The notes below the pieces were generated by a model, which had not been told where the DNA came from, did no database searches, and saw only the letters and a program-made list of their open reading frames with translations. Source: Treponema sp. (lineage in GTDB: Bacteria > Spirochaetota > Spirochaetia > Treponematales > Breznakiellaceae). Taken from it: a stretch of 54,462 nucleotides of DNA. Location of the stretch: the NCBI GenBank assembly GCA_009782955.1, contig WRIB01000008.1, forward strand, positions 1-54,462, in the 5' to 3' direction. Shown here one piece after another: positions 23,843-48,092 of the stretch (the first letter of the stretch is position 1; every line of letters starts with the position of its first letter). The translations under genes and the position numbers were made by a program.

Positions 23843-24757
23843 GTGGGTATTATAACAAGTCAAAAAATTATCACATTCTACGAAAAGTATAAAGCCATAG
23901 ATGTAACTTTTTCCAAAGAAATAATCCAGGTTACAGGGCTTGTTACCCAGCAGGTACACCTTAAATGCGGCAGTGATTTCTGGCCATGTGTACTCTATTC
24001 CAGTTCTTTTCAGGGTGCCAAGGTAGTCGCCAGTACTAAATCAGGATTGATTAACAAACTCCAGGCAACAAACAATTCGGTAAGCCTCCGTTTCTGTTTT
24101 AAATCATCCGATCATGAAGCCCCTGTAACTTTTTTTGTTTCTGCCAGAGTTGCCGGTTATTCTCCCTATGGCGGTTCCGAGGATGTAGCCCTTTTTAACC
24201 TTCAATATACTCAGCGTCCGCCGGATGTTCTTATTGAAATAGTAGGCAGGGTGCTGGATGCCAATGTCAATTCTGCCAAAAGAAAGGACGAACGGATCAA
24301 TTTAGTGCCTGATACAATCCGAAAGCTGAAAATTATTGCAAAGGAAGCAGCAGTTTTTATTCAGGGTGTGCCGCGGCGCTGTATGTTACGTGACGTTTCC
24401 TTTTCCGGTGCGAAAATCATCATGGTAGGGGTTGCCAAGTTTCTTGTAGACAGAGAAGCAGGACTTCGTATTGATTTTGAAGACCCAAGAGAAAGTTTTT
24501 TGATTAAAGGTATGTTTGTCCGGAGCGAGACAGTTGAAGGCAGAAAAGAACTGATTGCTTTGGCGATTGAGTTTACCGGTCCTGTTCCAATGGGATATAA
24601 GGTTCGGCTTAATGAATACTTTGGTTTAAAATCCGATTTAAAAGGGGACTCTTCTGTCAGTGAAATGCCGGCACCTCCGCCGCCAGAGAAACCTAAGCCG
24701 CCGCCGCCGGCAGAAAGTAAGCCACCAGCCGGGGCTGCTGCCGGTAATAAAGAATGA
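23843..24757 (+). CDS. PilZ domain protein with proline-rich tail
   Basis: 304 residues from the GTG at 23843, chosen because a promoter occupies the upstream codons. The N-terminal ~130 residues form an extra beta-rich domain of the kind that precedes PilZ in several spirochaete proteins. The PilZ domain follows, with an RKDERI motif, later RRC and DVSFSGAK corresponding to the RxxxR and D/NxSxxG c-di-GMP-binding motifs. The last ~35 residues are proline-rich (PAPPPPEKPKPPPP), probably a flexible or protein-binding tail. It should be a cytoplasmic c-di-GMP receptor. It overlaps the TPR gene by 4 bases. Confidence 0.88.
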   Translation: MGIITSQKIITFYEKYKAIDVTFSKEIIQVTGLVTQQVHLKCGSDFWPCVLYSSSFQGAKVVASTKSGLINKLQATNNSVSLRFCFKSSDHEAPVTFFVSARVAGYSPYGGSEDVALFNLQYTQRPPDVLIEIVGRVLDANVNSAKRKDERINLVPDTIRKLKIIAKEAAVFIQGVPRRCMLRDVSFSGAKIIMVGVAKFLVDREAGLRIDFEDPRESFLIKGMFVRSETVEGRKELIALAIEFTGPVPMGYKVRLNEYFGLKSDLKGDSSVSEMPAPPPPEKPKPPPPAESKPPAGAAAGNKE

Positions 24758-25992
24758 AGACTTTTCCGCTTGTTTATATAACCATACCGGAAAAGCTGCA
24801 AAAGAAAATCATTGGACAGGAAGATTTTGTTTTTGACTCCGCCATTCCACTGCCGGTTGAAATACCGTCCGGAATTGAAGAATCAAACGTGGATTTTACT
24901 GACGCAAAGGAACATCTTGATATAAAAAAAATCAAACAGGAAATGATTTTTTCGGGAATTCTCCAGCATTTGGCCGAAAATCCGGATCCCCCACCGAGAC
25001 TGACCGCTTCGGAGCGGTCAGGCGAAGGTTCCCCTCTGGCGAGTACCAACAGCAATTATTATCGTAATCTGATTTTTACATTTAAACCGGCAATTGTTTC
25101 TGAATTACAGGAAGCGGCAATTATAAAAGCCGGAAACGGGGATTATGAAACCGCACTTGAAATTTTTGATCTGCTTTTTGGGCTTAAAGGACAAGACCCT
25201 TATTTACTTCTTAACCGGGCGCTGATTTTGGAAGAGCGTGCTGCCGCTTTGGGGAAAAAATTGGAAAAGAATGTATCTCGTAAAGAAGAAAAAATGTATG
25301 ATGAAGCAGCGGAAGCTACTGAAACAGCTGAAGCAGCTTATGAAAAAGCCCTTGCCAATCCGGCTCCAGATACGCTTTTTTATGCAGCATTATATTATGA
25401 AAAACAGGCAGATTATTCCAAAGCCGCTTCCTGTCTGGAATCTTATTTAGACATTAGCAGTGAAGACGAATTATTGGATTCTGAAAACGATAAACAAATT
25501 AAAGCTGGGGAATTACTGGCGGAGATACGGAAAAACGGTCTGGACGACATGGTTTTTATGGAAGCGGTTACTTTAATCCGAAATTGTGATGAAGAAAAAG
25601 GAATCATAAAAGCAAAAGAATTTTTGGAACGGCATCCGGGAGCGGGAAGGGGCTGGTTTGTTCTTGGCTGGGGGCTTCGATGCCTTTCCCGCTGGGATAA
25701 TGCTGTAGAATGCTTTAGAAAAGCACTGACACTTGGCTGTGTTAATGCTGACACTTACAATGAACTGTCTATATGTCTCCTGGAAACAGGTGATCTTGCT
25801 GTTGCGGAAAAAGAACTGGAAAAAGCCCTGCATCTGGATCCGGATAATGTAAAAATAATCAGTAATATGGGAATTCTTGCAATGAAACAGGGAAACAATG
25901 AAAAGGCCAAAGCTTTTTTCCGCACAGCACTTGAACTGGAACCGGAAGACCCTGTTGCCGGAGCTTTTTTTGGTTTAAGCTCCGGCAATTGA
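24754..25992 (+). CDS. TPR-repeat protein coupled to the PilZ gene
   Basis: 412 residues with no signal peptide. TPR units are recognisable at ~125-150 (ALEIFDLLFGLKGQDPYLLLNRA), ~205-230 and three near the C terminus (GRGWFVLGWGLRCLSRWDNA; NELSICLLETGDLAVAEKEL; ISNMGILAMKQGNNEKAKAF). It probably serves as a scaffold, perhaps for the PilZ protein to which it is coupled by an ATGA overlap; the partner is inference. The stretch around residues 79-96 is encoded by an interspersed palindromic element in the linker before the repeats. It converges with the next gene, 12 bases apart. Confidence 0.86.
   Translation: MKTFPLVYITIPEKLQKKIIGQEDFVFDSAIPLPVEIPSGIEESNVDFTDAKEHLDIKKIKQEMIFSGILQHLAENPDPPPRLTASERSGEGSPLASTNSNYYRNLIFTFKPAIVSELQEAAIIKAGNGDYETALEIFDLLFGLKGQDPYLLLNRALILEERAAALGKKLEKNVSRKEEKMYDEAAEATETAEAAYEKALANPAPDTLFYAALYYEKQADYSKAASCLESYLDISSEDELLDSENDKQIKAGELLAEIRKNGLDDMVFMEAVTLIRNCDEEKGIIKAKEFLERHPGAGRGWFVLGWGLRCLSRWDNAVECFRKALTLGCVNADTYNELSICLLETGDLAVAEKELEKALHLDPDNVKIISNMGILAMKQGNNEKAKAFFRTALELEPEDPVAGAFFGLSSGN
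24991..25039 (+). repeat. Interspersed palindromic element, copy A, inside TPR gene
   Basis: The element starts CCACCGAG, has a central 8-bp inverted repeat (TGACCGCT/AGCGGTCA at 25001-25020, TCGG loop) and ends GGCGAAGGTTCCCCTCTGG. The start and end blocks recur in two other genes of the window (42849-42887 and 46942-46990). Here it encodes RLTASERSGEGSPL without breaking the frame. Confidence 0.75.
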
Positions 25993-42366: not shown

Positions 42367-44403
42367 TCAATATACTACTTTTTTGCCATTATTAATAGGT
42401 TTTTTTATAAATCTAAGGGTAAAATCAATTGATTCTGAAAGGTGTTGATAAAAAAGACGGGAGAATTCCAGATGTTGTTTAAAAGGATCTGTTTCCTGCA
42501 GCTCTTTTTCCAGTTCTGAAATTGGAGGGAAAAGAAAACCGGCGGCTGCTTTTACAGGACTTGCAGCAATGGCGGCATTGGTTTTGTCCAGTTTTTTAAG
42601 GATTTTTTCGTTTTCCTGTATGTTATTCCTGTGCTGTACCGGAATGTTTTTTGCAACAGACACTGCTTCACCTGCTCTGTCCCGTATTTCTTCAAGACCC
42701 CGGACAAGATCGGTTAGAGCATCAGAATAACGACTGGTCCGGTTTTCTTTCTCTGAACTATGGTTAAATTGAGCATCAATACGGCTGAACAATCCCGTCA
42801 GCAGCCGGTTTATTTCTTTGCGGCGTTCGGGCAGCGAAAGAAGTTTTTCCAGAGGGGAACCTTCGCTCACTTTCGTTCGCTCGGTGGAGTATTCATGTTC
42901 GGCGGGAACAAGACCGTGTATAGCAAGCCCGTCGGAAGAAAGACTGCGGTTAGTCACATTGGCTTGTTCAATGTGGTGTTCAAACCATGCTGCATACAGT
43001 GAAAGCCGTTTGTCGGTAAGTACTTTACCTCCGCGGGCTGATGCAGCCATAAAAGGAATGCCGTTTTCAAGTGTTCTTACAGAAAGTGTTTCTATTGGTG
43101 AAAACCGTTTTGAAACAGCATGGGAGTTTTCTTCAAAAAGGGCGCCTTTGTAATGGGTACGATAGTCCGGAAAAGCCAAATCGAGACCGGCAATCCAAAC
43201 ATCGGAAGGACCCAGGAATCGTGCAAAATCCCAGGCTGTAGTTGCTACTGAACCTCCGGCACATAGTATACCTTTGGGGTCGGTACGATCTTCGATAAAG
43301 CGCCCGAGCGGGAAAAGCGACTGACAAAAAAAGACCCTCATAAAAGCAGAATTACGCAGCACTGACGGATATACAGCAGATTCCGCTATCAGCGTTGTAT
43401 TGGGCGCTTCGAGCCGGTGAAGATGAAGAGCATTCCAATATTGAGGATCGACCGACACAATAAAATCCGGTTCCACACCGTTTTTTAGAAGGCAGCGAAG
43501 GGAAGTATCAACCGCTATTGTCAGGCAGCGGCTGTGGATTTCCTTCATGTGTTTTTCTATATTGTTCAGTGATGGTCCTGCAGCGGCAAGAAATACAGGA
43601 ATGTCCGTGTGGTGCAGTATGTTTTCCAGATTTTTTACTCCGGGAAATTTCAGTACCCCTTCCATATTTGCCGCCAGGTTTTTTGTCCAGCGTTTTCCAA
43701 AACGCTGCAAGGTGGCGGCATTAATCTCGTCTTTGGAAGCCCATGTATTAATCCGCCGTTCTACATCTGTATACCAGGATTCATCTTCGGCTGTTAAACC
43801 GGTAAGCGCCCGGTTTTTTATGACAAGCGGTTTTTGTGTTTCTGCAAATGCAAGAGCGGCGTGAATGGCTGCGGGTTCGCTGCTCAATACAAACATTGCC
43901 TTTCCTGGTGAAATCAGACGTTCCAAATTCCGCGATTTTAGCGCCAAAGTAAACAAATCCTTATGCCGTTCAACAATGATCAATGAACTGTTGTGCTGTG
44001 CCAGTACTTCGGCCATGTAACCGAGTCCAAAACCCAATAAAATGATTATTCCGTTTTTATCATTAGTTTTATTTTTTTCCATGGCTTCTGTTAAAGCCGC
44101 TTCAGCCTGTCGCTGGCCTTCACGGACAGGGTCCCGCCGTGAATGGATGGATATTTCCGGGGCGGTATTGTTTTCCCTGTAAAACAGAGTAGGGTTTCCG
44201 GATGGTGTTTGTTCCAATCGCCAATGGTGTTCAAAATGGCAGCAATTACTGTTTTCGATCTGGTGTGCCAGTTCAGGATAATGGGAGCGGAGCAGGGCAA
44301 GATTGTGATTCCAAAACAATTCCGCCGGTAAACTCTGCCGGGCGAACTCTTGTTCGCTGTTTTTCTCCGGTATTGCCGGAATTTCTGAATTAGGAACGAT
44401 CAT
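42367..44403 (-). CDS. DUF115 / MptE-like (motility accessory factor-type) protein
   Basis: 678 residues, soluble. A Rossmann-like part (LLGFGLGYMAEVLAQH; IIVERHKDLFTLAL) precedes the DUF115 core (PVFLAAAGPSLNNIEKHM; VDPQYWNALHL; GGSVATTAWDFARFLG; AGLDLAF). Related Maf proteins add nonulosonic acids to flagellins; a role in flagellin or envelope glycosylation is inference. The C-terminal ~170 residues are helical. Residues around 503-515 (STERTKVSEGSPL) are encoded by an interspersed element copy. The ATG overlaps the upstream PBP stop by 4 bases. Confidence 0.83.
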   Translation of the reverse strand: MIVPNSEIPAIPEKNSEQEFARQSLPAELFWNHNLALLRSHYPELAHQIENSNCCHFEHHWRLEQTPSGNPTLFYRENNTAPEISIHSRRDPVREGQRQAEAALTEAMEKNKTNDKNGIIILLGFGLGYMAEVLAQHNSSLIIVERHKDLFTLALKSRNLERLISPGKAMFVLSSEPAAIHAALAFAETQKPLVIKNRALTGLTAEDESWYTDVERRINTWASKDEINAATLQRFGKRWTKNLAANMEGVLKFPGVKNLENILHHTDIPVFLAAAGPSLNNIEKHMKEIHSRCLTIAVDTSLRCLLKNGVEPDFIVSVDPQYWNALHLHRLEAPNTTLIAESAVYPSVLRNSAFMRVFFCQSLFPLGRFIEDRTDPKGILCAGGSVATTAWDFARFLGPSDVWIAGLDLAFPDYRTHYKGALFEENSHAVSKRFSPIETLSVRTLENGIPFMAASARGGKVLTDKRLSLYAAWFEHHIEQANVTNRSLSSDGLAIHGLVPAEHEYSTERTKVSEGSPLEKLLSLPERRKEINRLLTGLFSRIDAQFNHSSEKENRTSRYSDALTDLVRGLEEIRDRAGEAVSVAKNIPVQHRNNIQENEKILKKLDKTNAAIAASPVKAAAGFLFPPISELEKELQETDPFKQHLEFSRLFYQHLSESIDFTLRFIKKPINNGKKVVY
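42849..42887 (-). repeat. Interspersed element, copy C, inside DUF115 gene
   Basis: On the coding strand it reads CCACCGAG, a 12-13 base centre containing direct repeats of GAGCGAA, then AGCGAAGGTTCCCCTCTGG. It lacks the strong central palindrome of copies A and B and is 10 bases shorter, yet the end block is identical to copy A over 17 bases. Confidence 0.65.
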
Positions 44404-46754: not shown

Positions 46755-48092
46755 ATGAAGGATATTATCGCAGCTCAGCACATTCAACGCCGGTCTAAAC
46801 CGTCTCTTTTGCCTGCAATTCACGAACACAAATTATCACAGTATACTGTTCCGATAATGCAGAATAATTCATTCATTGCTGATCAGCATCTTCCAAAACG
46901 CAGAAAAAAACGGCTTCTTGAAAAAATCCGTGGCGGAATAGCCAGAGGTGAACCTGCGCCTGACCACTTTAAAGTGGACAGACTTGGTGGAATATTCCGG
47001 ACTTTAGAAAAATATATCAAAACGTCTGTCTACAGCAAAAAAAAGATAAAAAAAGATAAATCTGGTTTTTCGGAGGGAAACCTTCGTTCTCGTTTATTTG
47101 GCCGGCGGAGTATACCGGCCAAAGATCAAACGCCGCTTGAAGATCATCCCGGTTTTCTTGCAACTGCCGGCGATTTTTTTGCCCGTCTTCCCGGAAAAAT
47201 GTTCCTGTGTGGTTTTCTTTGCCTGGCAGCAGGATGTTTTGCCCTGATGTTGGATTATATTCCCGAACCTGAACCCCCGGAAGACAGGACAATTCGGGAA
47301 CAAAGTCCAAGACCCGAAGCTTTTTTCGGCAGTGAAGGCGATGAAATTCCCCTTGATTTAACAGAAAATTTTGCCTGGCAAAACTATACAGTCCGTTCCG
47401 GCGATTCGGTAGAAGCCATATCACGGCGTTTTGGTCTTTCTCTGGATGCGGTAATTGCTTCCAATGATCTTCGCAATGTCCGGCAGCTTAAGGCCGGACA
47501 AAAAATCCGTATTCCCAACATGGATGGTATTCCCTATAAAGTAAAAACCGGGGACAGTTATTCCAAAATAGCCCAGTCGTTTGGTGTACCGCTGGAAGCG
47601 GTACTAGATGCCAATGATATACAAAACGATTCTATAACCATTGACACTGTGCTGTTTATTCCCGGCGCCAGAATGGACAAAAATGCCCTCCGGCAGGCTT
47701 TAGGGGAACTTTTTATCTGGCCCATTTCAGGCAGACGCAGTTCGGGATTTGGCTGGCGTAACGATCCCTTTACCGGAGTCAGGAGTTTCCATGCCGGATT
47801 GGATATTGTAGGTCCTGTAGGTTTATCGGTAAAGGTTACAGCAGATGGAAGAGTAACCGCTACAGGGTATAATGCCACATTCGGGAATTTTATAATTGTT
47901 AAACATACGGATGAGTATGAGACCATGTATGCTCATTTAAGTAAAATGTTTGTTAAAAACGGAACCTATGTAAATCAGGGGGCGATTATCGGCCAGGTAG
48001 GCAATACCGGCCGCAGTACCGGATCGCATCTTCACTTTGCGGTATACAAAAACAAACGGGCCATAAACCCTCTTGAAGTACTAAATAAATGA
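46755..48092 (+). CDS. Membrane-anchored LysM / M23 peptidoglycan endopeptidase
   Basis: 445 residues. A basic cytoplasmic N terminus (~1-150) leads to one membrane segment (~155-172), two LysM domains (YTVRSGDSVEAISRRFG; YKVKTGDSYSKIAQSFG) and an M23 domain with His346, Asp350 and the His425-x-His427 metal ligands (HAGLD, HLH). It binds and cleaves peptidoglycan in the periplasm. A TATAAT overlaps the chosen ATG at 46751-46756; if it is the promoter, translation would begin further in, e.g. ATG 46857. The cytoplasmic part holds element copy B and a possible degenerate copy. Confidence 0.92.
   Translation: MKDIIAAQHIQRRSKPSLLPAIHEHKLSQYTVPIMQNNSFIADQHLPKRRKKRLLEKIRGGIARGEPAPDHFKVDRLGGIFRTLEKYIKTSVYSKKKIKKDKSGFSEGNLRSRLFGRRSIPAKDQTPLEDHPGFLATAGDFFARLPGKMFLCGFLCLAAGCFALMLDYIPEPEPPEDRTIREQSPRPEAFFGSEGDEIPLDLTENFAWQNYTVRSGDSVEAISRRFGLSLDAVIASNDLRNVRQLKAGQKIRIPNMDGIPYKVKTGDSYSKIAQSFGVPLEAVLDANDIQNDSITIDTVLFIPGARMDKNALRQALGELFIWPISGRRSSGFGWRNDPFTGVRSFHAGLDIVGPVGLSVKVTADGRVTATGYNATFGNFIIVKHTDEYETMYAHLSKMFVKNGTYVNQGAIIGQVGNTGRSTGSHLHFAVYKNKRAINPLEVLNK
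46942..46990 (-). repeat. Interspersed palindromic element, copy B, inside M23 gene
   Basis: Read on the minus strand it begins CCACCAAG, has a 14-bp perfect centre (CCACTTTAAAGTGG at 46964-46977) and ends GGCGCAGGTTCACCTCTGG. It is inverted relative to its host gene, where it encodes ARGEPAPDHFKVDRLGG. It has the same length as copy A, with the palindrome at the same place. Confidence 0.7.
47097..47123. repeat. Perfect 9-bp inverted repeat inside M23 gene
   Basis: TTTGGCCGG and CCGGCCAAA flank a 9-base loop. It lies in the variable cytoplasmic region beside a stretch (47070-47113) that resembles a decayed copy of the interspersed element. Confidence 0.6.

Follow-up and report, generated by a model that had tools for sequence, protein, structure and literature searches.

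Probable miniature hairpin elements inserted in frame in protein genes of Treponema and related spirochaetes

Results and Discussion

Four copies of a small element in three unrelated genes

We analysed a stretch of 54,462 nucleotides from a Treponema sp. (contig WRIB01000008.1, positions 1 to 54,462; hereafter the window), part of a 2.56 Mb draft genome that is 86% complete (G000). The original prediction was that three genes of this stretch, encoding a TPR protein, a DUF115 protein and a LysM/M23 peptidase, share a module of two conserved blocks around a variable, often palindromic centre. The sequence AGGTTCMCCTCTGG occurs exactly at 25026-25039 (+), 42849-42862 (−) and 46942-46955 (−), in three unrelated genes and in both orientations. 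With up to 2 mismatches allowed, the window held six matches, whereas 100 shuffles averaged 0.6 and never reached six; the shared module is therefore real. The genes and the copies within them are:

24754..25992, + strand: gene for a TPR protein of 412 amino acids, host of copy A
24986..25039, + strand: copy A, a 54-nt element with core 24991-25039, inside the TPR protein gene; covariance-model E 1.3e-4
42367..44403, − strand: gene for an MptE-like protein of 678 amino acids with a Maf N-terminal-like stretch, host of copy B
42849..42893, − strand: copy B, a 45-nt element with core 42849-42887, in the DUF115/MptE-like gene, coding for EYSTERTKVSEGSPL; covariance-model E 4.3e-12
46755..48092, + strand: gene for a LysM and peptidase M23 protein of 445 amino acids, host of copies C and D
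46942..46995, − strand: copy C, a 54-nt element with core 46942-46990, antisense to the LysM/M23 peptidase gene and read as ARGEPAPDHFKVDRLGGI
47070..47114, − strand: copy D, 45 nt long and decayed, which shares the M23 gene with copy C

Copy C was weak to the covariance model (E 0.09), and copy D, the fourth copy, which had been missed when the first three were noticed, gave E 0.0034 in the whole-genome search and 5.8e-4 in another model search. Both orientations were used and the reading frame stayed open in the window copies, as had been claimed. The bounds needed revision: the true start lies 5-6 bases 5′ of the first block as it had been drawn, and we add to the description that the two bases at one end covary with the two at the other. 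The two copies of 49 bases are 24991-25039 and 46942-46990; the core of the DUF115/MptE-like copy is 39 bases long.

Copy number, consensus and distribution

Searching the genome with the 18-base 3′ block at up to 3 mismatches gave 45 matches, against 2 for the reversed control, so that there are about 45 copies rather than the three first seen. We also trained a covariance model on 19 copies from the window genome; across the whole genome it found 47 places at E≤1, four of them in the window. A pattern with fixed spacing, tried as a query, found one place because the length of the centre varies. The consensus reads (T)ATACTC-NN-CCGAG, a variable stem-loop, and then GCGAAGGTTCCCCTC-NN-G, and most elements are 36 to 54 nt long, with a few longer. 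An Rfam scan of six loci returned matches at E 0.22 and 0.54, both below threshold and neither of them at the element. For copies from public genomes the scan required exact CCGAG and GCGAAGGTTCCCCTC and left NN and the stem free, so the conservation of the required letters is partly built in. Among the resulting 163 parsed copies are array units and some spurious rows, namely L059, one row of 73 nt in each of L052 and L147, and a decayed unit from L042; we dropped copies with fewer than two of the three end pairs and those too close to a contig end.

Among 97 relatives searched with the covariance model under stricter filters, 23 were matched, all of them from one family (23/58), with none among the 39 others. 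An exact 15-mer had one match outside the family, in G071, compared to two matches for the reversed control. A scan of named genomes yielded at least 107 stretches; among the 80 matches listed, 78 were spirochaete records, mostly Treponema metagenome assemblies, many of which, judging from isolate names, are presumably of termite-gut origin. One of these records, Spirochaetaceae bacterium Nl494_bin56, seems to agree with the same-genus genome G002 in where two copies lie. Four viral contigs each carried a copy. Two were examined: in one the copy neighbours a capsid gene, and in the other it lies between genes for an integrase and a terminase. The copies on phage contigs are at L223:2972-3010 and L220:6321-6363; that in L223 is read in frame, close to the end of a small gene located between those for integrase and terminase.

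Empty sites and insertion edges

Comparison with orthologues revealed sites from which the element is missing. Copy A corresponded to a 54-nt DNA gap in the sister species G004 and two further genomes, and copy B to a 45-nt DNA gap in four genomes, being present in G004; copy C was present in G004 and absent from three other genomes aligned as DNA. At the protein level, the 18 columns of copy A held one residue in 25 of 28 distant orthologues and 4 to 7 in the other three, and the columns of copy B (15 residues) held one residue in all 28, so that none of the 28 carries the residues of copies A and B. Neither of the two results that would have refuted the original prediction, just three copies in the genome or these residues in distant orthologues, was thus obtained. 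G004 does have residues in the copy A columns because a tandem duplication aligns there: its orthologue (L225) has no element at the site and a tandem duplication of about 41 residues of the TPR protein.

The aligned stretches of G000 and G004 were mostly 80-95% identical. In stretches chosen around copies, at least nine sites were common to the two species and four were not. A 45-nt copy in G004 was matched by an empty site in G000 at TCTG^AAGAA, and a second G004 copy by one at CCTG^ACAAT; conversely, a 108-nt double copy in G000 was empty in G004 at TTCTG^AAAGG. One public genome (L085) contained the palindrome GGCGGCAGG^ACGCCGC both filled and empty, with the empty site CAGG^ACGCC. All six empty sites could be read as T/G-G^A; the exact cut positions, taken from the alignments, are probable rather than fixed, as the aligner's own gap fell a few bases off at copies A and B.

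The same edges were found in the larger collection. For 125 non-tandem copies, the left edge was KG in 99, compared to 21 to 34 at seven shifted positions, and the right edge was A in 103. The first bases of the left and right KG were the same in 58 of the 125 copies and different in 67, and they also differed at two empty sites. There is thus no consistent duplication beyond the shared G, and a single shared G is indistinguishable from a 1-bp duplication. With agreement of the middle bases in 58/125, we rejected target duplication by copying of the left flank into the 3′ end; we also rejected a MITE, as neither terminal inverted repeats nor a consistent target duplication were found.

Palindromes are a minor class of target. 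Of 67 deduplicated non-coding copies, four lay in long palindromes and 10 did so at a lenient score (3.7% expected); among 48 coding copies none did at a score of 7 or more, and we rejected general insertion into hairpin loops. A separate repeated palindrome with the loop AGGA and T-rich, terminator-like ends was present in L085, L065, L105, L220 and others, and some of its copies carry the element in the loop.

Residence in protein genes

Open reading frames of at least 150 codons contained 77 of the 163 parsed copies, and 59 of these 77 were on the sense strand. In the stretches from G000 and G004, 37 of 69 model matches (E≤0.5) lay in such frames. Copies with the end pair AA/TT were mostly outside them (67/90), whereas those with other pair types were mostly inside (54/73). 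The insert adds about 12 to 18 amino acids and leaves the frame open. A single 3′ phase accounted for 53 of the 77 coding copies (39 loci), mostly read as ...EGSP(L/P); in this phase KG^A cuts a GAN codon between its first and second bases, and the junction residue was D in 22, E in 13, V in 10, A in 5 and G in 3.

Among host proteins scanned, 19 of 20 had a Pfam match, and many hosts are housekeeping genes. In a phosphoglucomutase (L343) the insert of 15 residues directly follows DADRFGIAV, and the inserted segment is a gap in the best alignment to the solved sugar-phosphate mutase 1wqa. Further hosts were a GH57 protein, an E2 acyltransferase, a DEAD helicase, histidine kinases, a ClpC-like ATPase, a methylthiotransferase-like radical SAM protein and, in G004, ribosomal protein L9, where the insert lies in the tail behind the domains; an RsmD-like methyltransferase contained a weak element match.

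Hairpin fold and covariation

The two bases before CC pair with the two bases after CTC. Among the 163 parsed copies these pairs were AA/TT in 90, CG/CG in 27, CA/TG in 21, AG/CT in 6, and AC/GT and GA/TC in one each, and the remaining 17 had other combinations. The variable part forms a stem-loop that differs in sequence between copies. Pairing covered 94.8% of cells in the 36-nt class (33 distinct cores), for which the covariation score was 0.335 compared to 0.108 for shuffles (0/500) and at most 0.054 for slid versions; in the 39-nt class (29 distinct cores) the figures were 96.2%, 0.345, 0.180 (0/500) and at most 0.070, all with structures drawn from the same sequences and thereby favoured over the slid versions. 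Further pair types did not exceed those in shuffles (69/500 for the 36-nt class and 164/500 for the 39-nt class), nor, clearly, did pairs changed on both sides (52/500 and 11/500, respectively). A tandem G.A plus A.G mismatch was retained in 22 of the 29 cores of the 39-nt class. Folding the three copies first noticed gave an energy beyond that of shuffles for copy C (z −3.75) and weak results for copy A (z −1.14) and copy B (z 0.20, not better than shuffles); a consensus-like 39-nt core was likewise no better (z 0.48), and one long-stem core did exceed shuffles (z −2.80).

From these patterns we model the element as a constant base, in which C-NN-CC would pair with GG-...-NN-G and which would contain a GA/GAA internal loop and an unpaired TTCCCCTC, topped by a freely variable hairpin crown. 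The pairing of differing centres had been taken to suggest selection on a hairpin, and the covariation does support constraint. In orthologous resident copies, though, pairs are often broken, and pairing therefore seems to be kept by the copies that spread, so that the constraint more likely acts on these than on the host genes. Compensatory change in resident copies was considered, since orthologous copies of B and C differ as CA/TG and CG/CG, yet other pairs in them are broken and we rejected it. Some pairing could also arise through palindrome correction without selection.

Tandem arrays

In 22 abutting pairs the units were joined with a 5-6 base head; the stem was mostly common to both units, and unrelated stems occurred in L148 and L099. 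Orthologous arrays at L344:4013-4139 (G000, three 42-nt units) and L320:3307-3413 (G004, two 54-nt units) had similar flanks, but every unit had a stem unlike those of the other species, which looks like replacement of the entire array. At L335:2981-5338 a tandem array, read antisense as repeats of PEGNLRPMGSVEY, lay in a helicase C-terminal-like ORF of 786 residues.

Search for a mobilising enzyme

No transposase was found with or near the element. Y1 profile matches were absent from 11 of the 23 genomes that carry copies, including G001-G004 (drafts 64-85% complete) and G032, which is a single contig. One Y1 gene is present in the window genome; G030 and G026, with at least 40 and 28 Y1 transposase matches, respectively, have no element copies, and none of the 30 Y1 loci examined had a copy. 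With drafts that are incomplete, neither profile distribution nor gene context favours a Y1/RAYT partner. IS607 serine transposases over the curated cut-off were found in none of the 97 genomes, and weaker matches in 49, none of them G000-G004; we therefore set aside an IS607-type minielement. Integron integrases over the cut-off occurred in 23 of the 97 genomes, none of which was among the 23 carriers (at E≤0.001 there were matches in 94 of the 97, most below the cut-off), and GTTRRRY is missing from the consensus, which does not support an integron attC site.

Proposed origin and movement of the element

We propose that these copies probably constitute, in Treponema-like spirochaetes, a family of miniature gene-inserting elements, which would enter after T/G-G and before A and would likely be moved in trans by an enzyme recognising a folded single-stranded hairpin. 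Such machinery would see the constant base, and the crown would only have to pair. As most copies end in KG followed by A, an insertion would recreate its own target, and this would explain the head-to-tail arrays, including those in which neighbours have unrelated stems. Within genes, purifying selection may favour the phase that cuts the GAN codon behind its G, giving ...EGSP(L/P)-D/E, which would keep the host residue and add a hydrophilic linker. Once inserted, copies would drift, and phage-borne copies may provide a route between species.

Of the other explanations, recurrent local events are the most durable, though we regard them as unlikely: a palindrome might be copied between genes by template switching during replication or by gene conversion, with no dedicated enzyme. 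That no enzyme was found would agree with this, as would the replacement of the stems in all units between L344 and L320, which conversion or slippage might give. The preference for KG^A edges over the 125 copies and at the six empty sites, however, points to site-specific cutting, and the mismatches retained in 22 of 29 cores would have been erased by palindrome correction. Slightly less probable still is that the repeat is no selfish element but a functional motif, in RNA or DNA, retained because it serves the host in mRNA processing, regulation or chromosome organisation, its spread being secondary. Covariation with non-canonical G.A pairs, the nine or more sites common to the sister species and the non-coding copies in loops of terminator-like palindromes fit such a role; against it, four sites differ between the sister species, the host genes are unrelated, pairs are lost in shared copies, and no match turned up in 35 of the family's 58 genomes.

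Elements moved by Y1 HUH transposases have hairpins, lack a consistent target duplication and insert 3′ of a short fixed sequence, some of them into hairpin loops. A REP-like element moved by an enzyme of this kind (RAYT/IS200 type) would account for the hairpin architecture, the missing duplication, the fixed sequence 5′ of the insertion, the few targets in hairpin loops and the single Y1 gene of the window genome, but carriers without Y1, Y1-rich genomes without copies and Y1 loci without a copy make it very improbable. Ordinary conserved protein sequence or chance similarity, plausible for the first three copies taken alone, is refuted by the counts relative to controls, the use of both strands and the empty sites.

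Returning to a family of mobile elements, we would venture, as a distinctly tentative extension, that this one is defined by its fold and is among the smallest spreading coding hairpins, with machinery outside the HUH-Y1, IS607 and integron classes that may read the constant base, ignore the evolving crown and write a linker of 12-18 residues into core enzymes. Such a family would offer proteins a lasting means of acquiring linker segments, and with its clean empty sites, its defined edge preference and covariation that can be measured, the question of how such elements move would become directly testable.

Relation to known systems

Palindromes spread through protein genes have so far been discussed mainly for Rickettsia and Wolbachia, from which the spirochaete system would be separate. 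The Rickettsia palindromic elements (RPEs) and their Wolbachia equivalent are dispersed palindromes lying in frame in many unrelated conserved genes and also between genes; RPEs are described as 105-146 or about 150 bp long, with 12-bp terminal inverted repeats, and fall into ten families (PMC2229807, PMC10969869). The behaviour likened to that of RPEs in the original prediction holds, namely in-frame insertion in unrelated protein genes and absence from orthologues. Membership does not follow, because the architecture, compared with RPEs by description rather than by sequence, differs: the spirochaete element is mostly 36-54 nt long, has no terminal inverted repeat but only C-NN/NN-G end pairing, takes a single asymmetric fold whose crown varies, shows KG^A edges and forms tandem arrays. 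Size is no clean divide, since one paper treats RPE-4 and RPE-6 as small CGTC REPs (PMC3733652).

The GTAG and CGTC REPs and the REPINs are hairpin repeats of 20-40 bp with a variable stem and loop and compensatory changes, and sometimes lie inside genes; the CGTC REPs have no dedicated transposase, and Spirochaetes are among the phyla named with CGTC repeats (PMC3733652, PMC3116915). The present element is likewise a small hairpin repeat with a variable stem that is sometimes found in genes, but its consensus has neither the GTAG nor the CGTC tag, its two-base ends covary, it has an 8-base unpaired 3′ segment, and it does not track with Y1. PARCELs are palindromic coding repeats, suggested to be mobilised, that form protein domains of 25 residues repeated in tandem within ORFs whose function is unknown (PMC2996958). 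The spirochaete elements, in contrast, are mostly single inserts, many of them in housekeeping genes.

The integron attC site is a folded single-stranded site that combines a conserved base with unpaired bases and a terminal structure that varies, all of which have counterparts here; the spirochaete element differs in having neither the GTTRRRY core nor a cassette. Cyanobacterial small dispersed repeats are very small and presumably mobile, and the likeness to them, drawn from description alone, is one of size and presumed mobility. No description of such elements in Treponema was found by title or abstract opening, in a search that lay mostly outside the subscription literature.

A larger repeat carrying the element

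In L056, L060, L067, L111, L112 and L146 a larger repeat was present with one element near one of its arms; in several copies of this repeat the arms were inverted and about 20 bp long.
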